Made by a program: the position numbers and the translations under genes. This document shows, piece after piece, positions 6,258-62,954 of a stretch of 64,000 nucleotides of DNA. The first letter of the stretch is position 1, and every line of letters starts with the position of its first letter. The notes beneath the pieces are model-generated. The model ran no database searches and was not told the DNA's origin. It saw nothing but the letters and a program-made list of their open reading frames with translations. Source of the stretch: Corylus avellana (lineage: Eukaryota; Streptophyta; Magnoliopsida; Fagales; Betulaceae); NCBI RefSeq assembly GCF_901000735.1, contig NC_081543.1, positions 29,844,771-29,908,770 on the forward strand, given 5' to 3'.

Positions 6258-8408
6258 ATGCAGGGAGGCAAAAAAGAAACCCCCTGTAATCATGGTAGGT
6301 CAAGTGGTAAAGCTTTTGTGGAGTATCCGGAACATGAAGTTGAAGGTAAAGTGCATCTTTTAACTGGTTGTAATGCTATTTTTTTTCCTAATAACTATAT
6401 AGGAAAAGGGAAAGACCCTTGAAGCTGTAACTTTAGAGCACATCATTTTACTAAGTCGACTGCTTCCTACATTGTGTTTGGATAAATTCCTTACTTGTCA
6501 CCCATTTTATCTTTCATTCTGATCAAGAGTGGAAAAGACCCGTTGGAATCCAACCTCAAAAAGTGCTGTTCATTTTTTTCCCTCTTGCTTGATTGCAGAG
6601 AAAAACAGCAAGCATGTGCAGTACAGAAATGACTACAGCAAGTCGGAGGAAATACAGTTGCAACATCACGATGGTAGTTTCACTTTTCATAAGTCCACTG
6701 TCACTTATGGCAATGCCGATGGATCATATAAATTTTCATCCACAATTAGAATGACAGGGAGTGATGGAGTAAGTGATCTTAATTTAAGGTTGATATAACA
6801 TGTTCAATTTGTAGGCTGGTTCTGTTTCTTAATTTCACTTTGTTGTGGAGCAGGTGACCTTCGTAGAAAGCAAAGTAGCTGAAACTGCTACAAGTCAGGC
6901 AAAACACAGCATATCTGGGGGACTTTATGATAAGGTATTATTGCTTCACTTTTCAGTCTGAACTTTTCGTGTTATTGGTGTTTATCTGTGCGATGTTGAA
7001 ATTGTACTTTTCTACATAAAAAAATGATATTGTACTTATGGTGATGACATATTTTGTAGGGCCATTCCACAACCGGGAAGCTTAATTCAGATTGTAAAGT
7101 GGACACAAAGCAGACCTTACCCAATCTGACTGAAGGTATATGTAGACATAGTATATTTTGGGGTATATGAGTATACAGAGGTGCACTTAAAAATTTTTTT
7201 TGCACATAAAGGAGAAATAACCAAAAGCTCTGGATTGGAAAATTTTCAGATGAAGCTAATGAGCTTTTTCGATTTGAACAATCATGGAAAGGAAATGATA
7301 CGCCTAGCTGGTCTGAGAATTTTATTGGCTATGATAATATTGGTAGGTATCTATCTCTTTTGCTATATGTGTTAGCTCATAAAGTATAAATAACCAAAAT
7401 CTCTGGATTTGAAAATTTTCAGATGAAGCTGATGAGCCTGCTGGATTTGAACAATCAGAAGCTGCTGAGATTTCTGGATTTGAACAATCATGGAACGGAA
7501 ATGATGCACCTGGCTGGTCTGAGAATTTTAATAGTTATGACAATATTGGTAGGTGTCTCTTTAGCTATTCAGGGATTTTTTTTTTTTTTTTTTAAAAAAA
7601 GAAAGTAATTGACAAATATCAGGAATGTGATACTGCATTGGCTTTTGATACAAAAATAAAATACTGTCATTATTTCATTAAAGAGAATAGAACTCTAATA
7701 TTTGTAGCATGTTGGTGTGTACATTTAGTCAGAGGTGCATATGCGTAGGTAAATCAAATAGCATTTTGGATTTGGTAAGAACAGACTTGCATTTCCTTTG
7801 TTGTACAAATGGCTTTTTGGGAACTTCATGTAAAAGGCTCTAATGAATTACATCTAATTTTGTTAAAGTATTTCATTGGTTTTTGGATCTCATCTCACCC
7901 TTATATCTTTTTTAAAGCCTAGATATTAGTCTTTCATGTACCATGTACATATTGTAATGTTAGACTAGAGATTTTGGAACAAATGACATCGCCTCTCCTA
8001 TCGATAATGGTGGATCACGGGTTCAATCTTCTATGGATGTGAATTGTGTTTATCAATTGTTTGAAATCATACTTGCATTTATTGTCTTGTTTTCTAGGTG
8101 TACATGAGATTTGGAAGGCAATGGGTGGTTTAATAAGGAAATTGTAAAAGAGTGAGATGAGAAACTGCTGAAAATTTCAAAATTATGCATTGTGATAGTT
8201 GCTTTACAAGCAATAGAGGGGAAATTTTACATGGAAAATGGGCCTCACATCACACAACAAAGGTTAGAATATTTTTTTAACTGTTGAACCATGAACTCAC
8301 ATATCCCCTTGTAACAACTTTACAGATGTCGTCGAGGAGGACTCATATGCATATCACGATGATTATTATCCGGACCCATATGAATATCACGATGAGTATT
8401 ATCTGTGA
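6258..8408 (+). CDS. MLF-like protein, short paralogue (array copy 1)
   Basis: The exons are 6258-6345, 6599-6768, 6854-6934, 7060-7135, 7250-7342, 7423-7548 and 8326-8408. They have GT-AG introns and add to 717 nt, giving 238 residues without a stop. The start is MQGGKKETPC, 52 nt inside an exon whose acceptor is at 6204-6205. The MLF core is in exons 2-5 (YRNDYSKS, SFTFHKSTVTYG, GHSTTGKLNSDCKVD, FEQSWKG). In animals, MLF proteins bind 14-3-3 and Hsp70/DnaJ partners and stabilise transcription factors; the plant role is not established. Compared with copy 4, 101 codons of the DPF-rich N-terminus are missing, in frame. The fifth exon is duplicated: 7250-7342 and 7423-7548 both begin DEA and keep the same splice phase. 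The tail is Tyr/Asp-rich (HDDYYPDPYEYHDEYYL). Expression is untested. Confidence 0.78.
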
Positions 8409-8592
8409 CTGTGAGGTTGACCGGAGGCTTCAACTTTTGATAAGTCAATTTTAGATGTTAATTTGCCGCATGTGGCATCTTTTGGAGTTGTTAAAATGAT
8501 ATGGTTTTAAGTATGACTTTTGAATATCTATGAAATATGGTTTCAGTATTAGTGCTCTGGTATGTTTTATGAGTGAGATTGTGGTTTAAAAA
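8409..8592 (+). other. 3' flank of MLF copy 1
   Basis: Likely 3' UTR. It matches the segment after copy 3 (56468-56650) up to about 8592, where the sequence jumps into the middle of the copy 2 leader LTR. This is a head-to-tail junction with no spacer or promoter between. Confidence 0.55.
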
Positions 8593-9159
8593 ACCAATGT
8601 GGACTATGTGAAGGGCTGTAGTGTGTGAGCGTGTGTGGGTTATGTCTAAATTTATGACTCGTTTGATTTGCGGAATAGATATTCTAGTAGGAAAATAATA
8701 GGTATTACTGTGAATAGAAAATGTTGGAATGGAATAATTATTTAAATTATTTATTTTGGTAACAACACATTTTATAATTGGAATTTATCAAAATTACTAA
8801 AATGCCTATATGATTTCTAATTTTTTCAAAACTCAAAAAAATAAAATAAAATAAAAAAGAAAAACCTAATGGGTGGCCAAGCCACCCCCAGAAGGCCATG
8901 GCGAGGCCCTCTGTGGGTGGCGCGGCCACTCCTAGTTCCTATTGTGGTTGGTCATCTATTTCATTCCAAGGGTTTATACAGCAAATCAAATGGACCCTTA
9001 GTGTTCTACATATAATGGGTAGTTGAGTAAAAGTTGTGTCCTCATTTGTGGTTTAACTCCCACACAGGGTGGAGTTGTGGAGTTGTATCGTGTATTGTCT
9101 TCTTATTTTTATTAATTTTTTTATCTTATAAATTGACTTTTTTATATTTGGACCTGTCA
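8593..9159 (+). mobile_element. Truncated solo LTR of MLF copy 2 leader
   Basis: This is the 3' part of the LTR described at 5190-5574. It begins at the stretch equivalent to about 5358 and ends GACCTGTCA, followed by TAGGG in the target-duplication position. The 5' part and everything upstream of it, including promoter and first exon, is missing from copy 2. A MITE at 8655-8997 interrupts it. Confidence 0.65.
8655..8997. mobile_element. Harbinger/Tourist-like MITE with TTA target duplication
   Basis: The terminal repeats are TGACTCGTTTGATTTGC and its inverted relative GCAAATCAAATGGACCC. The 3-bp TTA is duplicated at 8652-8654 and 8998-9000. Copy 1 has the unoccupied site (TCTAAATTTAGTGTTC, about 5401). 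The inside carries GGTGGCC-type palindromes (about 8870-8930). Size and TWA duplication fit PIF/Harbinger MITEs. Confidence 0.7.
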
Positions 9160-9377: not shown

Positions 9378-9557
9378 GTTATTAATATTAATTATCTACT
9401 AAGTAATTATTTACAGATAAATAATAATTATTATATATATTAAATTACGTGGTGGTAATATATAAGTAGATAAATGTGAATATTTATATACATATAGCAA
9501 TATCCATTAGAATAGAACTTTAAGTGAGATTTTATCCAATTAGATATAGGTAGATCT

Positions 9558-11292
9558 TCTTAAGGCAGTGGTTCAAGTGATCCCTACCTATTGTATGAGC
9601 GTTTTTCTTCTACCACGAGCTCTATGTAAGGAGATAAATTCCCAAATGTGTAAATTTTGGTGGGGCCAAAAAGAGAATAAATCCCGGGTAAATTGGATGA
9701 GTTGGGAGCGTATGGGCTTATCAAAAGAGGTCAGGGGGATGGGGTTTCTTGATTTTACAAATTTTAATAAGGCTCTTTTGGCAAAACAAAGTTGGAGGCT
9801 TTGGCACCAATTGGACAGCCTAGTAGCTCGGATTATGAAGGCGAAATATTATTCGGGATGTTCTATTTTGGAGGCAAATGTTGGAAGGCAACCCTCTTTT
9901 GCATGGAGAAGCATCCAAGGCTCTTGTGACCTACTTAAGGAATGGTTGGTGTGGAGAGAGCGTAATGGTTGCACGGCTTGGATTTGGAAGGATAGGTGGT
10001 TTCCGAACCCATCTACTTTCAAAATTGTTTCCCCACCAGCCTTTTTGGACCCGGAAGCAAAGGTTTGTACTGTTATTGATATAAACTCCATGTGGTGGGA
10101 TATTCCTCTTTTGGCGCCCCTATTTTCCAGTGAGGAGGTACAAAAGATTAAAGAAATTCCTCTAAGCTCTACCAATCAAGAAGACATTCTTATATGGAAG
10201 GGTACTAAGAATTGAGTTTTCTCGGTAAAGAGTGCATATCACATGCTAAAGGAGGTGGAAATTTAGACAGTGGCAGCTGGGTCATCCTCTAATGGTGGCA
10301 GTGAATTTTGGAAGTGGTTATGGGCTTTGCCGGTGCCTAATGAGGAGAAATTTTTTTTATGGCAGGCTTTTCATAATAACCTTCCAACTCGGGACAATCT
10401 TCACAAAAGAAAAGTTCTCTTGGATGCTCTTTGTCCGGTGTGTGGTTTAGAGGTGGAGACCAGTCTCCATATCTTATGGCAGTGTGCCTCGGCGATGGAT
10501 GTATGGTCGTTGGGGAATGCAAAACTTCAAAAATGCTCCTTTAGGAGACTTGGATTTATGTAGTTGTTGGAGTGTCTATTTGAGAGATGTGACCAAGAGG
10601 AACTCAGACAATTCTCTGGAATGGCTACACGTATATGGTTGCGAAGAAACGATTTAATACATAGGGGTGTTCTCTCACATCCGAGAGTAATTCTGCAGCA
10701 GACCAATAAGTCCATGCTAGAGTTGAGCTTGGCCAATGAAAAGGGAGAGCAAGCCTAGGCTTTACAAACGGAGGACGTAACTGTATGCTGGAGAGTCCCG
10801 GAGATGGGATGGGTAAAAGCAAATTATGATGCAGCACTTGAAAGGCATCAAGGTCGGATGGGGCTTGGAGTGGTGGTCCGCAATTCTCAAGGTACCATGC
10901 TGGCGGCAAGGTGTGTGGTTCGAGATGGGTGTCTTGCTCCGGCAGCAGCTGAGGCAATGGCGTTCCTCATGGCCATTTGTTTCTGTCGTGAGCTGAGATT
11001 TACCAAGGTGCACTTTGAAGGGGATGCAAAGTCTGTTATAGATTCTGTAAACTCGGATATGGTGGATAGCAGTGGAATGGGGCATATGATTGAGGATATT
11101 AAATTAGAGATTCATGCGTTTCAACAATTGGGGGGGGAGGGGGGAATCATGTAGCTCATTTACTTGCTAAATATGTTGTGAAGCATACTTGAATGGAGAG
11201 ATGTGCCTCCTGATTGTATACGTGATGTTTTCTTTGATTTTAATGAGATGCCAACTATTCTATCAAAAAAATAATAATAATAATAAATAAAA
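9558..11292 (+). mobile_element. 5'-truncated LINE (non-LTR retrotransposon)
   Basis: The element is bounded by a perfect 14-bp target duplication ATATAGGTAGATCT at 9544-9557 and 11293-11306. It ends in an A-rich AATAATAATAAT tail, as LINEs do. Only the 3' third of a plant L1-type ORF2 is present, which is typical 5' truncation during reverse transcription. Confidence 0.85.
9562..11190 (+). pseudogene. LINE ORF2 remnant: reverse transcriptase C-terminus, zf-RVT, RNase H
   Basis: The domains run in order. First is the C-terminal part of the reverse transcriptase (VIPTYCMSVFLLP, FWWGQ, ALLAKQSWRLW), open until TGA at 10213. Next is the zinc-binding zf-RVT segment (FFLWQAFHNNLPTRDNL, CPVCGLEVETSLHILWQC) up to TAG at 10561. 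Last is an RNase H domain (NYDAALE, GVVVRNSQG, AEAMAFLMA, FEGDAK) near 10810-11150, with a frame break at the G run around 11132. At least three in-frame stops and one frameshift make it inactive. Confidence 0.85.
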
Positions 11293-11544: not shown

Positions 11545-11991
11545 GGAAGTATATATAAATAAGAGGACCCATTAAAGTAGGTTTTTTTTTTTTTTAACCA
11601 ATTGAGGCCTTCTAGAAATCTAAGGATCGTACCCTCCAAGAAAAGCAATGATACGTGTCCCCCTCTTCTCATGCACTGTTCAAATAAATTGTTAAAGGCC
11701 ATCTGTCATCCACGTCGATTATACGTGTCTTTCTCCCTCTCTTCCTATTGGGTTATTTTAGAAGAGCATAAGTCTCCATATTTCCTTACACTATGTTCTA
11801 AGCCAAGGAAGAAGAAGGAGACACCTAAAATTTTCGTTCAACTCCGGTAATCCTTTCTCTTCTTCCTTCAATTTACTATAATGGTTCTTGTTCTACTTTG
11901 TTTTCCTCTTCCTGCATACCCTCTCTTCTCTATCACGTTCTGTTCTCTATGGACTTATTTAGGAATTCAATTTCAAACTATATATATATAT
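11545..11991 (+). other. LTR-like sequence interrupted by the copia element (left part)
   Basis: It contains a TATA-like TATATAAATAAG at about 11552 and a CT-rich leader ending CAACTCCG before GTAATCC (about 11848), which could be a splice donor. The sequence continues at 18314 after the copia insertion. Layout and some short motifs recall the long LTR at 29802, so a solo Ty3/gypsy-type LTR is my best guess. No coding frame is convincing. Confidence 0.3.
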
Positions 11992-12314
11992 TGCTAGAAT
12001 TTTACTAAATAAATCTGTCTTACTCCATAGCATGTGAACAAGAATAAAAAAGAATGTAAACGTACATTCTTTGCTTGAAGATGAATCTGCCATCTTCTTC
12101 CCTTTGGCCTGTTGTGTTGTGTGTGTAGAGGGTACTAGCCTCTCAACCCTAATTGCTCTGATGACCTAATGAAGTCTAATGGGCTAACTTCATTATATAT
12201 GTAGAGTGAGAGTACATGGCTTCCTCAAGTGCTTACAGAATTGGTCCAGCCCATTATGGACCAAAATATTAAAATGACTATGCAGCCCACCCAAAAGTGA
12301 AATAAAATACAACA
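11992..12314 (-). repeat. Copia 3' LTR
   Basis: On the plus strand it starts TGCTAGAATT and ends ATACAACA. It is homologous to 17997-18313 over its full length and is the 3' LTR because the element runs on the minus strand. Confidence 0.88.
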
Positions 12315-12328
12315 ATCTCCCACTTGGA
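12315..12328 (-). other. Copia polypurine tract
   Basis: Read on the minus strand this is CCAAGTGGGAGAT, directly before the 3' LTR. This is the usual copia plus-strand priming site. Confidence 0.8.
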
Positions 12329-12665
12329 CTGCATAATTCATTTAATTACCAAGTAAACACAAATAAGCATTCCAAAAACACAATCTGATCTGAATGTGTT
12401 TGCAACTACAAGTTAAGAATACATCGATAAGATGTATAACATATAACAAGTATTTACAATCACGTGATCTAGAAAAATAGAATGCAAGTATTACACACAA
12501 ATAACACAAATAGCACAAATAGTGATCACTCCATATTTATTTGAAGCCCACTGAGACTAACACACAATGTCTCGTATCATAATACAAATAATGCCATGAT
12601 CAATATCGCAAAACAGTACATGGCAACACAAAAGACTCACGATACACGCAAACATACAACTCCCA

Positions 12666-13310
12666 CTAACTCAATAGAACAGAAGACTCCAACAACCCCA
12701 TATAAGTCACATGCCCTTGAAACACTATAGGAGCTAACCCCTTAGTTAGTGGATCTACTAACATATGTTCTGTGGGAATATGCACAACACAAATGTGAGA
12801 CTCGGCTACTTTCTTTCTAACAAACAAGTATTTTATATCAATATGCTTGGATCGCAAAGAGCTTCTAGTGTTCCGAGAGAAAGAAACTGTTGCAAAATTA
12901 TCACAAAATATCTTCAGCGGCTTCTCAATGGTATCCACAACAACCAGCCCTGAGATAAAATTTTGCAGCCATATAGCCTGACATGTAGTCTGGTAACAAG
13001 CTATGTATTCTGCCTCCATAGTTGATGAAGCTGTAAGTGTTTGTTTGACACTTTTCCATGAAACAGCTCCCCCTACCATCATAAAAACATATCCAGAAGT
13101 GGATTTCCTATCATCTGAACAACCTGCAAAATCGGCATCTGAATATCCAACTACATCAAGAATGTCGGATCGCTGATATGTCAGCATAAAATTTTTAGTA
13201 CCCTGTAAGTATCTTAGTACTTTCTTTGCAGCTGTCCAGTGACTTAAACTTGGATCATTCAAGTATCTCCTAAGCACACTTACAGCATAAGCAATATAGG
13301 TCGTGTACAT
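12666..13310 (-). pseudogene. Copia RNase H segment
   Basis: The frame carries the end of the reverse transcriptase connection (RYLQGT) and the RNase H domain. Visible motifs are GYSDADFAGC, KSTSGYVF, SWKSVKQ, the catalytic-region EAEY and KHIDIKYLFVR. It is separated from the upstream reverse transcriptase by a frame change at about 13280-13310. Confidence 0.88.
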
Positions 13311-14465
13311 ACTTGAGCATACATCAGACTACCCACAACTGATGCATATGGAATGGATTGCATTTGAGTTCTTTCATTATCATTCTGAGGACATTGACAC
13401 TTAGAAAATGTATCACCCTTCACAATTGGTGTCTTTCCAAGAGAGCAAGATTGCATATGAAACCTATTTAATACTCGATCAATGTAGGTTTTCTGAGACA
13501 ATCCAAGAACACCTTTAGTTCTATCACGGAGAATTTGTATACCCAAAACATAAGAGGCCTCACCAAGGTCCTTCATATCAAAATGAGAGGACAACATATG
13601 TTTAGTTTCAAGCAAGAGCCCATTGTCATTTGTTGCAAGTAATATGTCATCCACATAGAGCACAAGAAAAATGTATCTGCTCCCACTGATCCTCAAATAT
13701 ATGCATTGATCAACAACATTTTCCTTAAAATTGTAAGAGGTGACAATTTCATCAAATTTCAGGTACCACTGCCTTGAAGCTTGCTTAAGCCCATAAATAG
13801 ATCTTTTAAGCTTGCACACCATATGCTCCTTTCCATTCACCTGAAAACCATCTGGTTGCTCCATATACACATCTTCAGATAAATGGCTATTGAGAAAAGC
13901 TGTTTTAACATCCATTTGTTGAAGCTCCAAGTCGAAATGAGCTACTAATGCCATGATTATCCGAAAAGAGTCCTTAGTAGAAATAGGTGAAAAAAGTGTC
14001 TTTATAGTCAATCCTCTCTCTTTGCTTAAAACCTTTTGCCACAAGTCTAGCTTTGTACCTCTCTACTTGGCCTTTGGAATCATGTTTGGTCTTAAAAACC
14101 CATTTGCAACCGATTGGTCTGCAACCACTTGGTAATTCAACCAAATCCCAAACATCATTTTGACGCATGGACTCCATCTCATCATGCATAGCCTCTATCC
14201 AATGTGAAGATTGTGGACCATCAGTAGCCTCTTGGAAAGTAGTTGGATCAATAGACAATCCAACATTGAACTCATGCTCCTGCAAATAAACTACATAATC
14301 ATCAGAAACTGCAGGCTTACGCGTCCTTTGGGATCTCCCTAGACGAACATCATCATCTGTCCCCTCATCAACATTTGGTTCAGTGTTGATAACATTTTCT
14401 TGAGCAATAACACGAGATTGCTCTACAGGTGGAGGTACATACACCGATGGTGAAATAAGATGCAC
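13280..14465 (-). pseudogene. Copia reverse transcriptase segment
   Basis: Two overlapping frames (13974-14465 and 13280-14044) together carry the copia RT. The first has WDLVELPSG, CKWVFKTK and ARLVAKGF. The second has DVKTAFLNSHL, QPDGF, the KLKRSIYGLKQASRQW stretch and the catalytic YVDDILLA. The frame change at about 13974-14044 disrupts the polyprotein. Confidence 0.9.
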
Positions 14466-14606
14466 TGGGACAACAACACGCTCCTCCCTAAATGAGATCT
14501 CACGAGGTATGGAAATCCCACTCTGAATATCATCCTCAAAATAAATGGCACGATCTGACTCAATGATTCTGGTTACATGAGAAGGGCAATAAAATCTAGA
14601 ACCTTT

Positions 14607-15740
14607 TTAGCCGACACAGTAACCTATAAAATATCTAGAAATAGTCTTAGGATCAAGTTTCTTTAAATGTGGATTATGAAGTCTCACTTCCGCCTTACAA
14701 CCCCAAACATGAAAATGGTGTAAACTAGGCCTTTTCCCAAACCACAACTCATAAGGAGTTTTAGGAACTGACTTGCTGGGTACCTGATTCAGAATGTATG
14801 TTGCAGTTTTCAAGGCTTCTCCCCATAAAAACTTTGGTAGGCATGAGTGACTAAGCATACATCGCACCATGTCCATCAAAGTACGATTTCTCATTTCTGC
14901 AACCCCATTTTGCTGAGGAGTTCCAGGCATTGTATATTGCGCTTCAATCCTGCATACTTCAAGAAACCTTGCAAAAGGCCCTGCATTTTGCCCAGTTTCA
15001 TCATATCTCCCATAATACTCACCACCTCTGTCTGATCTTACAGCTTTAATATTCTTGTTACGTTGGAGTTCAACCATAGCCTTAAAATTTTTAAAGGCTT
15101 CTAAAGATTCCGACTTTTCACGAATGAGCTCAATGTAACCATAACGTGAATAATCATCAATAAAGGTTATGAAGTACCTATAATTTCCCAAAGTAGCAGG
15201 AGTAATAGGACCACATATATCAGTATGTATCAATTCTAAGACATTTTCACTTCTCCCATCCTTTTGTCTCCTAGTTTTAGCAGTAAGCTTCCCTTTAACA
15301 CAATCAACACAAGTATCAAAATCAGAAAAATCTAGATTAGCATGAATACCATCTTTAATAAACCTTTCCATTCTTGGTCTAAAGATGTGACCCAATCGTG
15401 TGTGCCATAACATAGAGGATATTTCACTAGCCCTACTACGCTTGGAACCAACTACAGCACTCACAATAGGAGTATTAAGAGAAGAATAAGATAAAGAATG
15501 CATCAAGTCAATCATGTATAAACCATCACACAATATACCAGAACCAACCATAATAGAATCATAATAAATACTAACCATTCCATTTCCAATCTCAAAAGTA
15601 TATCCACATTTGTCCAAAAGAGAAATAGAGATAAGATTCCTCCTAATAGAAGGTACAAAAGCGATTCCTTTTAAATCCAAAAAATGCCCAGAGGCTAAAT
15701 GAAGTTTTGCAGTGCCAATGTATTCAACTTTGACCTTCAC
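14607..15740 (-). pseudogene. Copia integrase segment
   Basis: It contains the GAG-pre-integrase HHCC finger (LWHTRLGH...CVDCVKGK) and the integrase core, with [27 protein letters not shown] and TPQQNGVAE. It ends in TAG after [11 protein letters not shown], so integrase and RT are no longer in one frame. Confidence 0.9.
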
Positions 15741-16770
15741 ACCATTTTCCCATGTTCACCATCAACTCCCCATCACTCAGCCTTCTGGAGCTTTGTAATT
15801 CCTGCAAGGAATTTGTAACATGAATATTTGCACCATTATCTAACCACCAAGTGTCAGAGGGCACATCAACCATATTAGACTTAAAACACACTAACGTAAA
15901 AGGTGTACCTTTCTTCTCTAACCAAGCCATATATTTATTGCAACTTGCCTTCTTGTGCCCAAATGCATGACAAAAGTTACACTTTCCTTTGAACCCTTCT
16001 CTCTTAGGCACTAGAGAGGTGCGCACACCATCTTGTTGGGAAAACTTATTGAATTTCTTTACTTTATATGGCTTGTTCCCACTGCTGTTACCTTTATGAA
16101 AATTCTTCTTGAAATTTCCATTGTTTTGTGTCATTATAAAAACAGCAAGAGACTTTCCATTTTTTATCACCTCTTCTTCTTGAGTGACTATAGCAGTCAT
16201 TTCACTCAAGCTCCATTCATCTCTTTGAGCATTGTAGGTAGTCTTGAGGGCGTCAAATTGGGATGGCAAGGACTCAAGCACTTGCCACACAAGAAAACTA
16301 TCTGCTAACTCAACTTTCATTTCCCTTAGCTTGTTAAAAAAATGGGTGAGCTTCATAATATGCTCACGGACTCCACTAACACCATTATAAGTTGTGGTAG
16401 TAAGCAACTTCATGAAAGTTCCTTTTTCCGCTTTGTCAAACTTAATGAACTTCTTCCCAACCGCAACCAGAAAATCTTTGGCACTATCAGTATGAGTAAT
16501 ACTCTGCCTAATAGACTTGTCAATAGTGTACTTCATGATCATAAGACAAGTCCGGTTGGAATGCTCCCAACGCTCATAGTAGTTTTTCTCTTCGGCAGAA
16601 CTTTCCTCAATAAGTTTAGCAGGTGCCTCAACCTTCAAAGCCAAATCAAGATTCATAATTGCTAAATTGATAGTAAGAGACTCATACCAATCTTCATAAT
16701 TAGTCCCCGTCAGTGTTTTGATGGCAGATAATTGGAGAGACAGACCAGAATCGCTCAAAGCTAAGGACAT
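15724..16770 (-). pseudogene. Copia gag and protease segment
   Basis: The likely start is the Met at 16770 (MSLALSDSG). The gag core of the UBN2 type (LTGTNYEDWYESL...) is followed by a CCHC zinc knuckle (CNFCHAFGHKKASC). Next is the protease active site WWLDNGANIHVTN, where the usual DSGA reads DNGA but the catalytic Asp is kept. The frame breaks into integrase at about 15724-15740. Confidence 0.88.
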
Positions 16771-17982
16771 CACAACAAGATTTATTATGTATGTAAAAGG
16801 AAAATAAAAAACATGCACTCATAAGGTCATCACAATTTTTCATGCTAGAGTCTCAATGCACAATAGACTCTTACACATATAGTTAATCTCAAATTTTATG
16901 CTAGAGTTTTCCATATACAATGAACTCATACACATGATAAAGCAAAATAATTAAATACAATTACTTAAAATGGCCCGCTATCGAAAGGATAAGACTAGGT
17001 CATCAAGTGCAAAGTATTTAACAATTTCTTCATCGTCCTAAGCATCCTACCAAATTAATGATTTACCGATAGGGCAAATCAATTATCTGTGTGGACCTTA
17101 GTAAGGCAATGATTTCAAAAAACATAACAAACTCAATTTCCCTTCTTTTTTTTTTTTTCTTTTTTTTCGGATAATTTTCAATAATACCCCCAATAATTTA
17201 TCATGATTAGTCTCACGACAGGTGAGTACATAATCAATTAAAATCATTTGTATTAATACACAACAACATTATCCAAATTGTACTGGAAGTTTAATAAAAA
17301 GAAAACCCAATAATTTATCATAATTAGTCCCATGAGAGATGGATATGCAACTAATCAAAATCATTGGGTTTGATTCACAACAATATTATTCATATTGCAC
17401 TAAAAAATAAAAATTGAACATAAAATTCAACTTCCAAAACACAAATATTATAAATAACATATATAAAATAACATGCACATCACCCTTTGGATATTAGCAC
17501 AACACACATAAAAGGTCATGAATAATAACAAAATAGACCTTCCTTTTTTCTTTTTTTTTTCTTTATGACTTTTCAAGACATATATATTTTCTTTAGAAAA
17601 ATGAACAATGCCGGCCAGTACCCACAATGCACCTCTTTTCAAGACATGTTTTCTTTAGTAAAAATTAACAATGCAGTGCAGTGTAGTACCAGGTGCGCCT
17701 CCGCCAAATATCCACAATTTTTTTTTTTTTTTTTTAATTTCTTTTTATGTTGTAGTGGCCGGATTTTCATTCAACCAAAGAGAAGAAACAAAAAATATAA
17801 TTTTCAGGGATGGGTCTGATGACCCATACGATTATTAGAATAATCTCAAAAAAAAAAAAAAAAAATAGTTTAAACACAAGTCTAATGCAAATCTCATTGT
17901 TTACAATAATAATAATAATAATAACAATAATATTATTTAGAACAATGAGATTTATCACAATCATGTAGAAAAGAGACAGAAG

Positions 17983-17994
17983 GCTCTGATACCA
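17983..17994 (-). other. Copia primer binding site
   Basis: On the minus strand it reads TGGTATCAGAGC, complementary to the 3' end of initiator Met-tRNA, two bases inside the 5' LTR. Confidence 0.88.
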
Positions 17995-17996
17995 AT

Positions 17997-18313
17997 TGTT
18001 AGAATTTTAGTAAATAAATCTGTCTTACTCCATAGCAGGTGAACAAGAATAAAAAAGAATGTAAACGTACCTTCTTTGTTTGAAGGTGAATCTGCCATCT
18101 TCTTCCTTTTGGCCTGTTGTGTTGTGTGTGTAGAGGGCACTAGTCTCTCAACCCTAATTGCTCTGATGACCCAATGAAGTCTAATGGGCTAACTTCATTA
18201 TATATGTAAGGTGAGAGTATATGGCTTCCTCAAGTGCTTATAGAATTGGTCCAGCCCATTATGGACCCAAATATTAAAATGACTATGCAGCCCACCAAAA
18301 GTTAAATACAACA
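17997..18313 (-). repeat. Copia 5' LTR
   Basis: On the plus strand it starts TGTTAGAATT and ends AATACAACA. It is the partner of 11992-12314. Confidence 0.88.
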
Positions 18314-21432: not shown

Positions 21433-21553
21433 AAAAAATAATATTTTATTGATGTATAAAAATATTAAGGGAAGCTATCGTGAAGTGTATTGAAATAAAG
21501 AAGAAAAAAATAGTTTAGTTATTTAAATTTAAGGAAAATGAATAGAAAGCTGC

Positions 21554-23223
21554 AGTGAATAAGGTGGGCATGTCTTGTTTTGTAATCTCTGTTATACTTC
21601 GTTTGATGTTCTTTTTGGTTGGAGAGAAAATTTGAAAGGGTATAATCATAGGTTGCTAGAGAAAATTAGGGACATTTTATAGGGGTGAAATTTCTGTGGC
21701 TGTTGGCAACGGCTATTTAGTGGCATAATACTATTTCTCAATTTTTTTTTTTTTTTAATTTTTAATATTCTTATTTTTTACTTTACATCAATCACATTTT
21801 ACTAGCATTTAAATAAAAAAATATCAATACAAAATAATTTTTTTTTATTTTTCTATATCAAACATTCTTATCGTACCAATGCCAAACAACCCCTCTATGC
21901 GCATAATATGTTCTTTTGCTATTCCTTGATCTTAACGTATTTTTTAGTTATTTAGTGGACATAACTTGTGTTGTGTCTCTTCAAGAATGATATGCCTTTT
22001 AAAATTATTATTGAACTTGTGATAGATTATTATTGAATTTTGATCAAATGGTAATTTTAAGAGCCACATCATTCTTGAGGGGAGACTTGCTTTTAACGTC
22101 TTAATGGTGACCCCCACCCCGTGTCTTATTCATCATGCACCACATGTTGTTGTCTCTAAATTATTTTGTTTTGCTGTCTCAATTATTATGCTTTTGCTTT
22201 TTCACTGAGCAGCTTTTGACTACACAAGATGTATACAAAGCGGTCATTGGGTGATAAGAGAGAGTGGCAGCAACTTAAAGAGAAGAAGAAAAACTTGAGT
22301 TGCAGAGAAGAAGGCAGCGTGTTTGAGTGAGTATATATACACCATTTTTGTTTCAGTTTTTTTTTTTTTTTTTTTTGAAAAGAGCTTAGAGAATTAAGAA
22401 AAGTTTTCTCTTTTGTATTTAATTCTTTTCATGGGAAAGTGAGATTTGAGTGTATTGTATTTTGAATTTGAGTGGTTTTTTCTTTACTTCTCTTTGTACT
22501 CCACCTCTCTTTTGTTTATGAATCTCTCTTAGATCGTCTCGGTATATATGGATGTAAGCATGCTTGTTAAGTCGAGCTACTTAAATCTTATTTTTTGATT
22601 GGGCACTTTTCTGGTTTTTCGGTGATCTTGGAATTTGCATTTGTCGCAACATATATGTGTCTTCTACTGATTGAAACGTAGATTCTGTGCTTGAGTTTGA
22701 TTCGTTGTTGCATAGGGTGATTCATGGATGGTAATATTGATCATCATGGTGTTAGGTTCCTTTTCTTGAGACGTTGATTGAGTGGAACTTAATGTATAAA
22801 GTTTTGAATCTTTGATGGTTGAGAATCTTTAGTGTAGATCATGCCTGCTAAGGCTGCTATAGTTCCAAAATTTTAATCTTGCTTATCAGTTATAGTGAAA
22901 CTAGTTCGTGGAGAAGTTGTTAGGACCACCTGGAGACAACCGGGTGGATTTTGGATTTTTTAGCGGATTTCTAAATATTTTCTAGTGGGATACTTGAAAT
23001 TTATTTATAATATGCTGTTTGATTGTTTAGTTGTTGGTAAAATATCATCGTAGATGGTCATTTTGGTAAGAAGTTAGCAAACATAATTTCTAGCCATGCA
23101 TATTTGTTTGTTGTTATTGTTTCATATAGTGGTCGTTTAATTGGTTCTAATGCTGAATCTCATGGTTGCAGCATATACTTTTCTTTGCATACTAAGCTTT
23201 GGGGGGTTCATAGCACTTAGAAA
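21554..23223 (+). other. Leader intron of MLF copy 2, distal part
   Basis: Homologous to the copy 1 leader (about 5595-6257), ending in the acceptor TTGCAG at 23166-23171 and a short 5' UTR. It carries extra insertions: a 198-bp MITE at 21696-21893 with TCT on both sides, a GAATGAT...ATCATTC inverted element at about 21983-22078, and unexplained sequence at about 22100-22560. No first exon equivalent is present. Confidence 0.6.
21696..21893. mobile_element. Small MITE in copy 2 leader
   Basis: The copy 1 leader reads AAATTTCTATGCGC without interruption. Copy 2 has 198 bp inserted with TCT duplicated (21693-21695 and 21894-21896). The ends include GTTGGCA and TGCCAAAC, a short inverted pair. 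Confidence 0.6.
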
Positions 23224-32085: not shown

Positions 32086-32089
32086 ATTT

Positions 32090-40918: not shown

Positions 40919-41008
40919 TCTCCCCTTCCACTTTTGAGCTCCTCATCACTCTCAAACTCACAACTTTGCTTCCTCATCTTTCTGAAGCTCTCTCTCACAC
41001 TTTGGAAA

Positions 41009-45720: not shown

Positions 45721-48527
45721 ATGATGTCTAGAAGCGCGTCAGTAGAGGATGCGAAGGTTCCTTTACTGGATGATTGCGGTTCAGCCGTCAGATCAAAAGT
45801 TGGAAAAGATGATGATGATGATCAGGACCAAGATCTGGCACGGAGGGTTTGGATCGAGTCTAAGAAGCTGTGGCACATAGTGGGTCCTGCAATCTTCAGC
45901 CGCCTCGCCTCCTACTCCATGTTGATCATCACCCAAGCCTTTGCCGGCCACTTGGGTGACCTTGAGCTCGCTGCAATTTCCATTGCCAATAATGTTGTCG
46001 TCGGCTTCGACTTTGGCCTCTTGGTATTACTTCAATTTCTCATATATTAATTACATATTGTTAATTTAATTATTATTGATATAATATATGGTTTGTTTAA
46101 TTTATTTATCAGCTGGGAATGGCAAGCGCTTTAGAAACGCTATGTGGGCAAGCTTTTGGGGCAAAAAAGTACCACATGTTGGGTGTATACATGCAGCGAT
46201 CGTGGATCGTTCTTTTCACGTGCTGCGTACTGCTTTTGCCTCTCTATCTCTTTGCCTCTCCGGTGCTGAAGCTGCTGGGACAGCCTTCAGAAGTGGCGGA
46301 GCTATCTGGGCGTGTGACAATGTGGATGATACCGCTTCATTTTAGCTTCGCATTTCAGTTCCCTCTCACGAGATTCTTGCAGAGCCAGCTCAAAACTGCG
46401 GTGACTGCGTGGGTGTCTCTGGCGGCACTTGTGGTCCATGTCATTCTGAGTTGGCTGTTTGTGTTTAGGCTTCAACTTGGAGTTGTTGGAATTGCAGTTA
46501 CTTTGAACTTTTCTTGGTGGGTTCTGGTCTTTGGGCTTCTGGGTTATGCTGTTTGCGGTGGTTGTCCTCTTACATGGACTGGTTTCTCCATTGAAGCATT
46601 TTCTCATCTCTGGGATTTTGTCAAACTTTCAGCTGCTTCCGGACTCATGCTTTGGTATCTCCCTAAACCCTTAATGTTATTGGATATCATATATCCTCCT
46701 ATATATAAATTAAGCATCTACAGTCTACTTGCATTGCTTCCACTTTTCCCTTCATTTCCAAAGCTGATGATCACTGCTAATTACCATTTCTTTTTTATTT
46801 GACATTGTTTCTTTCTAATTCTAATTTGCAGCTTAGAGAATTGGTATTATAGAATACTGATATTGATGACTGGAAATCTACCGAATGCAGAAATTGCCGT
46901 GGATGCTTTGTCCATATGGTAATTAATTAACATCTTTTTATCAATAGCATGATTTATATGTAATTGTAGATTAATGTTAATCTTTCACAACCATTTATCA
47001 CCATTCCAATTTTCAGCCATTTGCTGTCTTGATTGAGGCAGCAAATGTGAGAAAGCTTTGTATGAATAAGTGGGTGGACTCTTCCTAATTTGTCTTGGAC
47101 AAGTAAACCCTATAAGAGCTTTTTCTTATTTATTGTTCAAATTGTTACTAATTCAGTCATTAAAATTGTTAAACATCTCTATTTATTTATCATACTTATT
47201 TTATACTGGCCGAATTCAATTAATTAAAAATAAAACAAAAAATAGTTTATATGAAAGCCACTTAAAACATATCACATATTCACATCAATTAGTATAAAAT
47301 TGATATTACAAATAAGTGTGAAGAGTAACATTATATATATATATATATATATATATCACGTCTAATTTATCATTTCCTTTTTTCTTTTTTTTGTTTGACT
47401 TAACAAAATATATATGAATAAAAGTTTACAAAAATTATTTTCTAAAAGATTAATTTAATTTAATTTGTCCGCTAAATATTATTAGCCCTAAAGTTTTGAA
47501 AAGAATTTGCCTTTCACTTTCAGAAGGATACAATAATGTCTATATATATAAGTGATTCCGTTCACCATATGTATACAGCTGGCCATACTCTCTTATTGTT
47601 GAATAATCTTTAGCTAATGTGTGGACTCATATTATTTGTCTCGTTTGGCAGCATGGCAATAAATGGATGGGAGATGATGATTCCTCTTGCATTCTTTGCC
47701 GCAACCGGGTATTTCTTCTAGCTTCACATTTATTTGCATATATGCCTTTGGTTTCTCCTACTTTATTCATTTATTATATATCAACCTCTTTTTTTTTTCG
47801 GTGGAGCCCATGCCCATTTGGTGAACATCACTGTGCACCTCAACACAATTCCTCACCATATGCTCTAGTTAGCAACTAATTATGAACTCAAATAATAGAG
47901 GCGGTGCATGTCACGGGCAATTGTTAATAATTTGTGCATTTTACAGGAGAGAATTTTAATGAAACTCGCCTACCCAAATGGGATTAGGATCTACTGAAAT
48001 GTTTAAGGAATTTTAGTTTCTGAAATTTCAGATCTAAGCAGTTTATTTTTTATCAAATGGTCATTGTTCTGTCACGTGTTTCACTACTAATAAAATAATG
48101 AATATATAAATGGGATTAGGATTTACTTAAATTCTTAAGGAATTTCAGTTTCTGAAATTTCAGATCTAAGTAGTTCATTTTTCATCTAATAGTTTATATA
48201 TTTATTATTTTATTAGTAGTAAGATACGTGACAGAACAATAATCCTTAGATGAAAAATAGATAGCCTAAATCCAAAATTTTAGAAATTAAAATTTTTCAA
48301 AGAATTTAAGTGGATCCAGATCCATCCGAATGGGTGGACAAATTGTTTAAAATTTGTTAGAAAAAAAAAAAATCTTTTATTATATTTTAATTCAAATTGT
48401 TACCAACATCAACATTGTTAAAGATCAATTACAAAATATTATATATATATATATATATATATTTGTTAAAGATCTCTATGGCGGTCACAAATATAGGATC
48501 AGTACGTGAATTGACTATAGGGATAGG

Positions 48528-53970: not shown

Positions 53971-54344
53971 TGAGAGGCCACGTCGTACACGAAGACCCAC
54001 GTTGTAGAAGTAGACGTGGGAGTAGAGAGAAGTGGGAGAGGAGTTGTCCCATGAGCAGAGGAGGACTGGTGCAAGTATAAAAGCCGTTTGGTCAATTCCT
54101 CTGTTTTCGCTTCATAAAACAGAGTGGGTTGCCGTGGGCTATGTGCATGGCTGTAGTGTATTTGGGTTATGTCTAAATTTAGTGTTCTGTATGTAATGGG
54201 TAGTTGAGTAAAAGTTGTGTGTCGTGTGTTGTAGAATCTCAACTGTGGTTTAATTCCCACCCGGGTGAGTTCTATTGTGTATTGTCATCCTACTTTCATT
54301 GAGTTCTTATCTTATAAATTGACTTCTCTGATTGGGACCCATCA
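53971..54344 (+). mobile_element. Solo LTR in the leader of MLF copy 3
   Basis: Orthologous insertion to 5190-5574. It starts TGAGAGG and ends CCCATCA, with TAGAG at the left and TGGAG at the right. It keeps the TATAAAAG box (about 54076). Confidence 0.72.
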
Positions 54345-55188
54345 TGGAGATTGTAACTTCTAAGGTGGGCATGTCTTGTTTTGTAATCTCTGTTATGCTT
54401 CGTTTGATGGTATTTTTGGTTGGTGAGAAAATTTGAAAGGGTATAATCATACGTTGCTAGCGAAAATTAGAGACATTTTATAGGGGTGAAATTTCTACAC
54501 GCATAACATGTTCTTTTGATATTCCTTGATCTTAATGTATTTTTTAGTTATCTGGTGGACATAACTTGTGTCTATGATTATGGAAACGTCTTATTTTTTG
54601 TTCTGCACTTTTCTGGTTCTTTGGTGATTTTTGAATTTGCATTTGTCGCAACATATATGTCTTCTACCGATTGAAACGTAGATTCTGTGCTTGAGTTTGA
54701 TTTGTTGTTGCATACGGTGATTCATGGATGGTAATATTGATCATCATGGTGTTAGGCTCCTTTTCTTGAGACGTTGATTGAGTGGAACTTAATGTAAAAA
54801 GTTTTGAATCTTTGATGGTTGAGAATCTTTAGTGTAGATCATGCTTGCTATAGTTCCAAAATTTCAATCTTGCTCATCAGTTATAGTGAAACTAGTTCGT
54901 GGAGAAGTTGTTAGGACCACCTGCAGACAACCGGGTGGATTTTGGATTTTTTAGTAGGATAGTTGAAATTTATTTATAATATGCTGTATGATGCTTTAGT
55001 TGTTGGTAAAATATCCTCGTCGATGGTCATTTTGGTAAGAAGTTATCAAACAGAATTTCTAGCCATATTTTTTTGTTGTCATTGTTTGATATAATGGTCG
55101 TCTAATTGGTTCTAATGCTGAATCTCATGGTTGCAGCATATATTTTGCTTTGCATACTAAGCTTTGGCGGGTTCATAGCACTTAGAAA

Positions 55189-56467
55189 ATGCAGGGAGGC
55201 AAAAAAAAAGTTACAAATAAAGAAAAGAAAGAAACGCCTTGGAATCATGGTAGGTCAAGTAGAACTAGTAAAGCTGTTGTGGAGTATCGTGAAGATAAAG
55301 TTGAAGGTAAAGTGCATCTTTTAACTGGTTGTAATGCTATTTTTTTTTTTCCTAAGAACTATATAGGAAAATGGAAAGACCCTCAAAAAGTGCACATCAT
55401 ATTACTAAGTGAACTGCTTCCTACCTTGTGTTTGAAGACCCATTGTAATCCTATGTTTTGATTGTTATTGTTGGGATCCAACCTCAAAAAGTGCTGTACA
55501 TTTTTTCCCCTCTTGCTTGATTGCAGAGAAAAAGAGCAAGCATGAGCAGTACAGAAATGACTACAGCAAGTCGAATGGAATAAAGTTGCAACATCAAGCT
55601 CGCAATTTCACTTTTCACAAGTCCTCTGTCACTTATGGCAATGCCGATGGATCATATATATCTTCATCCACAACTAGAATGACAGGGAGTGATGGAGTAA
55701 GTGATCTTTTAAGGTTGATAACATGTTCAATTTGTAGATTGGTTCTGTTTCTTAATTTGACTTTGTTGTGGAGCAGGCGACCTTCTTAGAAAGCAAAAAA
55801 GCTTATACTGCTACAAGGCAAGGAAAACGCAAAAGCTCTGATACTGCTACAACTACGAGGCAAGTAAAACACAAGATATCTCGGGGACTTGATAATAAGG
55901 TATTTATTGCTTTACTTTTTAGTCTGAGCTTTCTGTGTTATTGGTGTTTTTCTTTGCGATGTTGATATTGTACTTATGATGATGACATATTTTGTAGGGC
56001 CATTCCAATGTGAATAAAGGTATGTAGGCATAGTATATTTTTTGGGGTATATTTTTTTTTTGCACATAAAGGAGAAGTAACCAAAAGCTCTGGATTGGAA
56101 AATTTTCAGGTGAAGCAAATGAGCTTCTTCGATTTGAACAATCATGGAAAGGAAATGATACACGTAGCTGGTCTGAGAATTTTAGTGGCTATGATAATAT
56201 TGGTAGGTGTCTCTTTTGCTATATGCGTTGACAATATTAGTAGGATTTATGATAACATCCATCATTAAAAAATTATGCATTGTGATAGTTGCTTTACAAG
56301 CAATAGAGGTGAAATTTTACAAGGAAAATGTACCTCACATCACACACAACAAAGTTTAGAATGGTTAGAATATTTTTTCTAACTACTTAGCCGTAACACA
56401 CATATCCCGTTGTAACAATTTTACAGATGTCGCCAGGGAGGAATATTACGATGATTATTATCCGTGA
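55189..56467 (+). CDS. MLF-like protein, shortest paralogue (array copy 3)
   Basis: The exons are 55189-55306, 55527-55696, 55777-55899, 55998-56019, 56110-56202 and 56427-56467. They total 567 nt, giving 188 residues with no stop. It starts MQGGKKKVTNKEKKETPW and is 91 codons short of copy 4 at the N-terminus. The core stretch HEQYRNDYSKSNG...SFTFHKS-type is kept as HARNFTFHKSS-like sequence. Exon 3 (123 nt) has about two units of the basic repeat (TATRQGKRKSS, TTTRQVKHK). Exon 4 is reduced to 22 nt exactly as in copy 2, losing 18 codons. The end is FEQSWKGNDTRSWSENF and then an acidic Tyr-rich tail (EEYYDDYYP). The leader and promoter are of foreign origin plus the solo LTR. Retained introns exclude a processed copy. 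Function of the short form is unknown. Confidence 0.75.
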
Positions 56468-57640
56468 GGTTGGCCGGAGGCGTCAACTTTTGAAGTGCTA
56501 ACTTTTGATAAGTCAGTTTTAGATGTTAATTTGCAGCATGTGGCATCTTTTGGAGTTGTATTGTAAAAATGATATGGTTTTAAGTTATGACTTGTGAATA
56601 TCTATGAAATATGGTTTCAGTATTAGTGCTCTGGTATGTTTTATGAGTGAGATTATGGTTTTAAAAAGAAAAAGAACAATTATACTCGGAATCTTCTGCT
56701 GCAAGTGTGGATAAAAGTAGTAGCGATGCATATTCATAAAAGTGAGATATCTTCTTGCCTTTCTTGCCTCTCTCTTACACGTGCTGCCCTCTTCCTTTAC
56801 CAAGAGGTGCTCTCTTCCTTTACCAAGAGCTGCTCTCTCACCTCAGTTATGATTCACACATCTCCTTCAATTTATGGGCAAATTTATGATTCACACATCT
56901 CCTTCAATTTATGGGCAAAGGACAAAGTAGGACTAAATGATGAGATCCATAAATGAAGGGATGGTTCACCACACCAAAGGACTAAAGTGCCTTCAAGTTT
57001 CAATAAAGTTGCCGCATGCTCATTAATGAGCACCAAAAAGTGGTCTTCTCATTTTCACAGCCACAAGAGCTTCCTTCAAAGCTTATAGAAGAAGCTCAAT
57101 GGCAGCAACTTAAGAGACAAAGCCACGTGAGAGAGCAAATAAGTCTGTAAATTAAGATTATTTAAAAGGCATTCATAATGATTGTGGCCGCATTTTAGAT
57201 CTGTGAAATAGGAATACGGTGTTCTCTCATTTATTTTAGATAGAAGAATATTTAATTAATAGTTAAGATCTTTTCATAAATAGGATATTTATTCTATTAA
57301 TAAAAAATTAATAATATATATATATAAAATAAAATTATAAAAAATTAAAGGGTAGCTGGCTACCTCGTCAAATCATCCCAGTTGAGGCCTAGACTGCCCA
57401 TGAGGTTGGTCTGGCCATTAAGCTATCTGTATTTAAAATGGGGTGGTCTAGTTACTTCCTATGGCCAAGATGGGATGATCGGCTACTTCATATTTTTTTT
57501 AAAATTTAAAATATTGTTTTTTTAATTATTTTTTTAGTGGGACATGTATTTTATTTGTGACTTTAGAAATTTTTAGAAAAAATCTCAGCATGAACTGAAT
57601 GATGGAGGAGATGATCATAGTCTTATCAAATACAAGTCAT
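56468..57640. other. 3' flank of MLF copy 3 and repeat-rich stretch
   Basis: Similar to the copy 1 flank up to about 56650. Then comes unique sequence with two short direct duplications (CTCTCTTCCTTTACCAAGAG at about 56788 and 56809; TATGATTCACACATCTCC at about 56847 and 56885). Degenerate GGTGGC-type MITE sequence follows near 57340-57500. No gene. Confidence 0.5.
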
Positions 57641-60130: not shown

Positions 60131-60139
60131 ATTCCCCAA

Positions 60140-60410: not shown

Positions 60411-61577
60411 GGTTCTTTCTTTCTCTCCGTGGGATACTCGCAGGGTTTGATATTCTATTGAAAAATTTACTAATTATATGCATGTTTTGATTTTTAGTTT
60501 CATGACTAGAGTCAATGTTAATAAAATAAATGCGTGTTTTTGGCTGTGAAATCGGTGCAAATTCGGAGATCGGTTGGTACAGTATTGCAAATTCTGGCCC
60601 TTTTTGTTGGATTATGTTTGGGATTTCGGTTTTGATGATAGTTGAGTTGAGAATTTCTCGTTTTAAAGGGTTTGCGTTGGTGTTTTTTTTTTTAATTTTT
60701 TTTTAAAATTTTTAATTTTTAATTTTATTATTTTTTTTTATAAAGTGCCTTCGTAAACCAGCTAGGGCTTCTGTTTCATGTTCGTGTTAATTTTGTATGG
60801 TAGAGATTGTAAGGTGGGCATTTCTTGTTTTGTAATCTCTGCTATACTACGTTTGATGTTCTTTTTGGTTGGTGAGAAAATTTGAAAGGGTATAATTATA
60901 CGTTGCTAATGAAAATTGGAGTAAATTAGTCATTTTATAGGGGCGAGATGTCTATGCGCATATCATGTTATTTTGCTATTCCATGTATTTGTTGAGTTAT
61001 CTGGTGGACAACTTGTATTTCTATGATTATGGATATGTAGATTCTATGCTAGAGTTTGATTTGTTAGGGTGATTCATTGACGTTAATATTGATCATCATG
61101 GTGTTAGGTTCCTTTTCTTGAGACGTTGATTGAGTAGAACTTAATGTAGAAACTTTTAAATATTTGATAGTTGAGAATGTTTAGTTTAGATCATGCCTGC
61201 TATAGTTCCATATTTTTTATCTTGCTCATTAGTTATAGTGAAATTAGTTCATGGAGAAGTTGTTAGGACCACAAGGAGGCAACCCGGGGTGGAGTTTTGG
61301 AATTTTTAGCGGATTTCTAAATATTTTTTAGTAGGAGTGTTGCAAATTTATTTATAATATGCTGTTTGATTCTGTAGTTGTTGGTAAAATATCCTCGTAG
61401 ATGGTCATTTTGGTAAGAAGTTAGCAGACAGAATTTCTACCCATGTTTTTCTTTTTGGGTTATTGCTCCATATAATTGTCGTTTAATTGGTTCTAATGCT
61501 GAATCTCATGGTTGCAGCTTATATTTTGCTTTGCATACTAAGGCTCAAGTTCTTGTGGGGTTCATAGCACTTAGAAA

Positions 61578-62954
61578 ATGCAGGGAGGCAGAGGTGGCGG
61601 GGATCCTTTCTTTAATTTTGGCGATCCTTTTGCTAGTTTCGGGGGCTTTGGGGGTAACAGAAGTTTAGTGCCAAGCTTATTTGGAGGGAGGGATCCATTT
61701 GATGACCCTTTCTTCACACGCCCATTCGGAGGCATGTTTGAATCAAACTTCTTCGGTTCAAGTGGAAGTCCTTTTATGAATATGCATCCGACTGGATTTC
61801 TTGAGCATCAAGCTCCACAGCCAGAAAGACCAAGGGGCCCAATTATCGAGGAGTTAAGTTCTGACGATGAAAAAGAAGATACAGATAAAGAAAAGAATGA
61901 AAACCGTAGGAAGCATGGTAGGTCAAGCAGTAAAGCTTTTGTTGAGGATCCGGAAGATGAAGTTGAAGGTAAAGTGCATCTTTTAACTGGTTGTGATACT
62001 GTATTTCTCCACCCCCCCGACCCACTAATCTATGTATGGGAAAAGGGAAAACCCCTTCAAGTTCTAACTTTAGAGCACATCAGTGGGCCGCTTTCTACCT
62101 GTTAGAAGCATTCCTGGCTAGTCACCCATGCTCTTATCCAGTTGTATCGAGAGTGGAAAGACCACGTTATAATGCTATGTTTTGATTGTTATTGTTGGAG
62201 TCCAACCTCAAACAGTGTTATCCTTTTTTTCCTCTCTCTTCCTTAATTGCAGAGAAAAAGAGCAAGCATGTGCAGTACAGAAATGACTACAGCAGGTCGA
62301 GTGGGATGCAGTTGCAACCACAAGCTCGTAGTTTCACTTTTCATAGCTCCGCTGTCTCTTATGGCGGTGCCAATGGATCATATTATACTTCGTCCACAAC
62401 TAGAAGGACAGGGAGTGATGGAGTAAGTGATCTTTAAGGTTGATGACATGTTCGATTTGTAGGTTGATTCTGTTTCTTAATTTGACTTTATTGTGGAACA
62501 GGTGACCTTCGAAGAAAGCAAAGAAGCTGATACTGCTACAAGGGAAGCAAAACACAGGATATCTAAGGGACTTCATCATAAGGTATTTATTGCTTAACTT
62601 TTTAGTCTCTGCCTTTTGTGTACTTCCACATGTGTTCTTGGTGTTTGTCTGTGGGTTGATGATATATTTTGTAGGGCCATTCCATGACAAGGAAGCTTAA
62701 GTCAGATGGTAAAGTGGACACAGTGCAGACCTTACACAATCTGAATGAAGGTATGTAGACGTGGTATACTTTTAGGGTGTGTGAGTATACCGAGGTGCAC
62801 TTAATAAATGTTAGCATGCAAAGGAGAAATAACCAAAAGCTCTGGATTGGAAAATTTTCAGATGAGCTTGCTGGATTTGAACAATCTTGGAAGGGAAGTG
62901 CTCAAAAACATATTCCTGGCTGGACTGAGAATGTTTTTGGCTATGACAATATTG
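61578..62954 (+). CDS. Myeloid leukemia factor (MLF)-like protein, full-length copy 4, 3' end outside window
   Basis: The exons in view are 61578-61968, 62253-62422, 62502-62582, 62675-62750 and 62862-62954, all GT-AG and in one frame (811 nt, about 270 residues). The last coding exon, by analogy with 8326-8408, lies past the right edge. The N-terminal 130 residues are rich in Gly, Phe and Asp with repeated DPF motifs (GDPFFNFGDPFASFGGFGG, DDPFFTRPFGG), then an acidic patch (EELSSDDEKEDTDKEK). The MLF core follows: YRNDYSRSSG, ARSFTFHSSAVSYGG, STTRRTGSDGV, GHSMTRKLKSDGKVD, FEQSWKGSAQKHIPGW. In animals MLF proteins act as adaptors for 14-3-3, COP9-signalosome and Hsp70/DnaJ partners; the plant role is unsettled. 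This copy has the ancestral structure and the regular promoter, so it is the likely parent of the array. Confidence 0.85.

Follow-up and report, generated by a model that had tools for sequence, protein, structure and literature searches.

The 64,000-nucleotide stretch of the hazel (Corylus avellana) genome analysed here, C3:29844771-29908770 and hereafter the window, carries four MLF (PF10248-type) genes at 6258-62954. Three of them, copies 1 to 3, probably constitute an old lineage of truncated, chimeric MLF paralogues that has been freed from the constraint acting on the family while the reading frames have stayed open. The fourth, copy 4, is an ordinary full-length plant MLF gene. A sequence-only reading of this stretch had described an array of four MLF-like genes with five or six introns in the shorter ones. 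GT-AG exon models were obtained for all four, and for copies 1, 2 and 3 they give 6, 5 and 5 introns and exactly the 238, 219 and 188 amino acids that had been proposed. The four genes are homologous, but "array" is a loose term for them, since retroelements lie between copies 1 and 2 and about 30 kb of other sequence, with a MatE exon and other open reading frames (ORFs), separates copies 2 and 3. The duplication itself is clear, as upstream sequence, leader and introns can be aligned in all four copies.

All four genes are on the forward strand. Copy 1 (LOC132176507; 6258-8408; 238 amino acids) has exons at 6258-6345, 6599-6768, 6854-6934, 7060-7135, 7250-7342, 7423-7548 and 8326-8408, and copy 3 (LOC132176307; 55189-56467; 188 amino acids) at 55189-55306, 55527-55696, 55777-55899, 55998-56019, 56110-56202 and 56427-56467. 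The translations of both are letter-for-letter the NCBI Corylus avellana proteins P0123 and P0122, respectively. Copy 2 (LOC132175127; 23224-24588; 219 amino acids) has exons at 23224-23311, 23533-23702, 23785-24012, 24116-24137, 24215-24310 and 24533-24588; a 36-bp in-frame minisatellite in exon 3 (23774-23989) is translated into 12-residue basic repeats (TRQAKRKSS...). The NCBI isoform X2 of this gene, 215 amino acids long, is copy 2 minus four residues, as if exon 1 used a donor lying 12 bp further upstream. Copy 4, which matches the full-length protein P0001 at 89%, occupies 61578-62954 within the window (exons 61578-61968, 62253-62422, 62502-62582, 62675-62750 and 62862-62954) and encodes 270 amino acids up to 62954; its last exon lies beyond the window, at window-equivalent 64305-64600, and completes 369 amino acids. 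That exon holds a near-threefold LPSTE(R/H)AQHSGRVM repeat which is single in P0001. The upstream and leader region of copy 1 (5810-6257), common to the four copies, is 88% identical to copy 4 over 449 bp and includes, by eye, a probable acceptor, CATGGTTGCAG, of an intron in the 5' untranslated region (UTR). A gene-wide DNA search of the 369.9-Mb, 12-contig assembly returned, among its best candidates, copies 1-4, one further copy on C11 and short dispersed pieces.

The N-terminal truncation is evident from exon 1, which measures 88, 88 and 118 bp in copies 1, 2 and 3 and 391 bp in copy 4, a shortfall of 303, 303 and 273 bp. In the exon-1 alignment, the segment of copy 4 without counterpart in copies 1-3 is 61590-61868 (codons 5-97), and with it the DPF/GGF-rich N-terminal region, present in copy 4, is absent from the other three. 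The pattern resolves into one common loss of 279 bp, to which individual lineages later added indels of 24, 27, 6 and 3 bp. The previously noted losses of 101, 101 and 91 codons are thus right as net values, but they are not the product of a single event. Likewise, the abrupt jump in the N-terminus is real, but the junction runs inside the acidic patch and not behind it as had been proposed. A misannotated first exon hiding an intact N-terminus was excluded, since tblastn gave no match to P0001 residues 1-105 near copies 1-3. In an AlphaFold model of P0001 (62-row alignment), whose predicted local distance difference test (pLDDT) score averages 54.7, residues 1-152 score below 50 except for four isolated ones. 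The deleted segment is thereby of low confidence in the model, which suggests that the deletion took out probably disordered sequence.

The other end of these genes has been replaced, a change overlooked by the sequence-only reading. Copies 1-3 are without the conserved C-terminal exon (WALPS) that copy 4 has. The last intron of copy 1 can be aligned in pieces to copy 4 up to 8090, and homology ends at the acceptor of the last exon of copy 4; what follows in copy 1, 8091-8600, is a new, foreign 3' end comprising a terminal exon with an acidic, tyrosine-rich tail and the 3'-UTR. For copy 1 this break directly behind the aligned intron excludes that the conserved exon simply lies outside the model. 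Copy 3 can be aligned to copy 4 for just about 20 bp beyond exon 5. Counterparts of the new 3' end occur in copies 2 and 3, in the C11 copy and, at a greater distance (66-77% by piece), in segments on C1 and C5. An ORF with SWIB and Plus-3 domains precedes the C1 segment, which itself has the matching acceptor and stop; the gene of this ORF is a candidate donor of the new end. Part of the new end, 8179-8314 (query 89-224), also occurs as pieces of about 80-136 bp on C1, C7, C9 and C11; these dispersed pieces are mostly 74-85% identical and appear repeat-like.

The same form is found in alder. Alnus glutinosa LOC133853681, read from its protein, has the GGKK...DT.KEK junction, a repeated exon 5 and a tail ending in YYP; isoforms X2 and X3 resemble copies 1-3 in junction and YYP-type tail, and X2 scores 43.5 bits with PF10248. 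It differs from them in having up to three copies of exon 5 (X2), in the presence of the exon-4 segment and in lacking the 12-residue repeats. In copy 1, too, exon 5 is duplicated (7250-7548, the second being 7423-7548), and in alder there are two or three depending on the isoform. The Corylus C11 copy (LOC132166189) and the JGI proteins P0126 and P0129 have basic repeats like copy 2, with the truncated start present in P0126 and LOC132166189; the C11 copy and P0129 depart from copy 2 in a shifted end of exon 3 (GLHNNR).

The seven truncated rows of a 28-protein tree group together in a single clade (100/99 support), and alder branches outside the other six (97/91), two of which are JGI proteins. 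A tree constrained to join the six hazel-type rows to copy 4 and P0001 without alder was rejected by the approximately unbiased (AU) test (p 5e-7), as was one joining alder to P0001 (p 6e-6). A truncated ancestor that was then duplicated, as the sequence-only reading had proposed, is accordingly upheld and extended to include alder. A recent local burst is ruled out by the tree and by the same truncated form in alder. The related genomes that had been suggested for a search did yield truncated forms, in the predicted proteins of Alnus glutinosa; none labelled Betula or Carpinus was found among the predicted proteins searched, the named carriers being Corylus and Alnus only. The shared junction, the tail type and the tree suggest that the truncated, end-swapped form probably predates the separation of hazel and alder. 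For the divergence between the two subfamilies of Betulaceae, a plastome study gives about 70 Ma (PMC9789603); a nuclear study places the separation of Betulaceae and casuarina at only about 51 Ma (PMC7917096), and the hazel-alder split would therefore be younger.

That the constraint of the MLF family is gone from the truncated proteins is shown statistically. Sites were taken as conserved when shared by at least 90% of 107 full-length relatives (300-380 amino acids) out of the 119 matches listed (P0002-P0120). Copy 4 keeps 66/70 of these sites and P0001 67/70, alder 53/70 and copy 1 49/70, while copy 3 keeps 41/60, copy 2 37/60 and P0126 36/60. Between copy 4 and P0001, the full-length control, 2/60 conserved versus 16/85 variable sites have changed (p=0.005). 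No such protection was seen in the truncated pairs (p>0.25 in 6/6 tested), where the corresponding changes are 18/60 versus 21/85 between alder and copy 1 and 14/60 versus 21/85 between copies 1 and 3. Nonsynonymous and synonymous divergence (dN/dS; NG86, 138 codons) was 0.186/0.056 for copies 1 and 2, 0.124/0.077 for copies 1 and 3 and 0.132/0.088 for copies 2 and 3, and noncoding Kimura two-parameter (K2P) distances for the same pairs were 0.112, 0.095 and 0.102. A codon model over 211 columns gave the truncated branches an omega of 1.25, indistinguishable from 1 (p=0.42); 0.5 was rejected (p=4e-4) and 0.7 weakly so (p=0.03). A dN/dS near 1, which the earlier reading had named as the result that would speak against functional copies, is hence what was found. 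As a separate observation, the affinities among copies 1-3 vary by region (5430-8600, 21470-24760 and 54200-56680): copies 1 and 3 differ by a K2P of 0.038 in the 3'-UTR, and intron 5 gives 0.077 for copies 2 and 3 versus 0.243 for copies 1 and 3. Windowed counts of this mosaic are unreliable at ends where the alignment fails and serve as a hint only.

Despite this drift, frames are kept beyond chance in copies 1-3. Their gene models contain no stops, frameshifts or lost splice sites, homologous splice sites being intact, so that, omega of 1.25 notwithstanding, they are not classical pseudogenes, the status that, according to the earlier reading, dN/dS near 1 or frame breaks would give them. 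Within the clade, 8/8 coding indels in exons 1-5 of copies 1-3 are multiples of three versus 23/87 noncoding pairwise gaps, with a chance of 2e-5, or 4e-4 at the highest pairwise noncoding rate; the indels were counted by hand from the alignment, with the duplication of exon 5 and differences in the number of 36-bp repeats excluded, the minisatellite exon contains two of the eight, and the noncoding rate is rough in that pairs share events. Under neutrality, copies 1-3 would escape a stop with probabilities of 0.17, 0.18 and 0.33, jointly about 0.01. The C11 copy, by alignment, is frame-broken: 2 bp have been inserted where exon 3 ends, and a larger deletion has joined exon 5 to the tail; NCBI nonetheless annotates a 172-amino-acid protein. 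If this 2-bp event is entered as one miss, the in-frame test still gives p 0.0002-0.002.

Judging from spliced homologues and annotation, copies 1-3 are most likely transcribed. JGI P0126, of the copy-2 type and from a contig of 1,368 bases, spans exon joins without intron sequence and is transcript-like; P0129, of the C11 type (945 bases), is likewise intron-free across exon joins. P0132, from a 19-kb contig, runs into an intron. NCBI gives isoforms for copy 2 and for the alder gene.

The origin of the lineage can be reconstructed as follows. A duplicate of the full-length gene lost codons 5-97 by one in-frame deletion, and its conserved last exon was exchanged for the unrelated 3' end of another gene, as is demonstrated in copy 1 and as the shared new end of copies 2 and 3 indicates. 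The acquired end supplies the short acidic, tyrosine-rich terminal exon. In the hazel assembly the lineage is present with the three copies of the window and the one on C11; in copies 2 and 3 the greater part of two predicted core strands is gone, and the 12-residue basic repeats have been added. The products are most likely short, mostly disordered proteins with little MLF activity left, in which the frame is kept and the amino acid sequence drifts.

How much of the MLF core survives bears on the proposal that truncated MLFs bind the same J-protein partners as the full-length protein and thereby dampen or redirect it, a form of the competition for core partners put forward in the sequence-only reading. 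Copies 1-3 resemble the plant MLF or "glycine-rich protein" family (PF10248 Mlf1IP, Arabidopsis AT4G22740 type), as copy 4 does, in exon homology and MQGG start, with copy 1 also sharing predicted core strands and the helix, and differ from it by lacking codons 5-97 and the WALPS exon, by their other tail and by the absence of family-level constraint. In the P0001 model, strands at 158-235 and a helix at 239-256 have pLDDT blocks of mostly 85-91, and strands and helices are confined to 158-267 except for a four-residue helix (44-47) in the low-confidence stretch. A Foldseek search with this model gave no match at E<=0.001, and the best hit in a sequence search for solved relatives had an E of 0.77. 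In the model of copy 1 (mean pLDDT 58.1, with alder as an alignment row), strands 1-4 and the helix are confident, whereas strand 5 is predicted weakly and strand 6 is missing. Copies 2 and 3 have lost 54 bp of exon 4, corresponding to about residues 217-235 of P0001 and hence most of predicted strands 5-6. Against a PF10248 gathering cutoff of 34.5, the window part of copy 4 scores 69.1 bits and copy 1 38.8 bits, whereas copies 2 and 3 fall under detection (no match up to E 1; a second search with copy 3, up to E 0.001, also gave nothing). In the fly, the central MLF domain (MHD) alone is enough for DnaJ-1 binding (PMC5549762), and for Giardia MLF one study reports lower phosphoinositide binding after removal of the first 53 residues and proposes the flanking disordered regions as drivers of foci (PMC11527388). 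Together with the low pLDDT of the deleted part and the predicted strands 1-4 and helix, these data make a core-only MLF a sensible idea for copy 1, the only one of the three in which the predicted beta core is largely retained and which, from its model, might bind J-domain co-chaperones. Conserved sites are nevertheless unprotected even between copy 1 and alder, and omega is near 1. Since family constraint is undetectable throughout the truncated clade, retained MLF activity is judged unlikely. The proposal of core-competent competitors is not supported; it is weak, plausible for copy 1 only, and we regard it as quite improbable as an account of the three genes.

Alternatively, these genes may be dispensable duplicates in slow decay under no selection, their open frames owing to luck, recency or survivorship. 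An omega of about 1, the lack of detectable family constraint and the broken C11 copy all fit this explanation, but in-frame indels throughout, the low joint chance of escaping stops and an open homologue in alder do not, and we hold it to be possible but unlikely. A further proposal is a new function under diversifying selection, in which an acidic copy 1 and basic, repeat-bearing copies 2 and 3 act in a role that favours change. It would account for dN exceeding dS in 3/3 pairs among copies 1-3, for the omega of 2.0 in a 138-codon fit (p=0.057 against 1) and for the contrast in charged residues (K+R/D+E 19/46 in copy 1, 42/25 in copy 2 and 36/25 in copy 3), P0126 showing repeat expansion too. 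All 211 columns, however, bring omega down to the value of 1.25 given above, and dN is near that of the faster introns, which leaves this proposal doubtful.

An old chimeric lineage released from MLF constraint with its frames open remains our preferred reading, and several observations weigh against it. Pairing copy 1 with alder was not clearly rejected (p=0.0575), five truncated rows of the tree cover just 33-50% of the columns that were kept, the composition of two is unusual, and the alder junction and tail are known from protein sequence. The codon fits rest on 138-211 codons; the smaller gave the borderline omega of 2.0 just cited, and the two fits assigned the copy-4 branch an omega of 1.36 and 1.08. 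That branch is inseparable from the truncated stem, and consequently the fits are without a constrained control. The mixed affinities of introns and flanks hint at conversion or mosaic duplication, which may blur branch lengths. Frame retention points to some selection that is invisible to omega, and with a broken relative on C11, survivorship may explain part of that retention.

Other features of the window include a Copia-type long terminal repeat (LTR) retrotransposon between copies 1 and 2 (11990-18294; RVT_2 and integrase ORFs on the reverse strand; 300-nt terminal copies 95% identical). Downstream of copy 1, a reverse-transcriptase-like ORF region (9550-11154), with RVT_3 at 10759-11154 and an ORF at 9550 without Pfam match, is probably a fragment of a long interspersed nuclear element. 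A long direct repeat at 29802-36780 consists of two pairs of 300-nt blocks (29802/36091 and 30193/36481), 99% and 96% identical and about 6.29 kb apart; it is young and possibly represents LTRs. Between copies 2 and 3 lies the MatE-domain exon of a transporter gene (46101-46802), and an ORF at 40889-41458, rich in proline, alanine, serine and threonine and without Pfam match, resembles by eye an arabinogalactan-protein precursor. Apart from the last exon of copy 4, searches for extra MLF copies within the window, in 9 kb upstream and in 16 kb downstream yielded nothing. Used as a profile query, copies 1-3 retrieved 17 proteins at E<=0.001, including ones from Corylus avellana and Alnus. Protein searches located two more MLF loci about 20 kb apart at C7:24658751-24680664 (L023 and L024), likely a second tandem MLF pair; Carpinus has two near-consecutively tagged proteins that belong to a separate MLF clade.

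Listings of open-licence PMC papers yielded none that deals with truncated MLF genes in plants. The lineage offers a datable, multi-step case in which a duplicate loses a disordered end, swaps the other, escapes the constraint of its family and stays open. A further lesson is that a frame open across five or six introns is no proof of purifying selection. As a natural MLF without the N-terminal region, it helps to separate the function of the core from that of the tail. One may further speculate, in what is at present a rather bold and tentative extension, that the Betulaceae turned a conserved gene for a co-chaperone adaptor into chimeric proteins that are kept in frame but free in sequence, acidic in copy 1 and basic with repeats in copies 2 and 3, and that bulk properties such as charge or disorder, and not the sequence, would have preserved these over tens of millions of years, possibly while they diversified.

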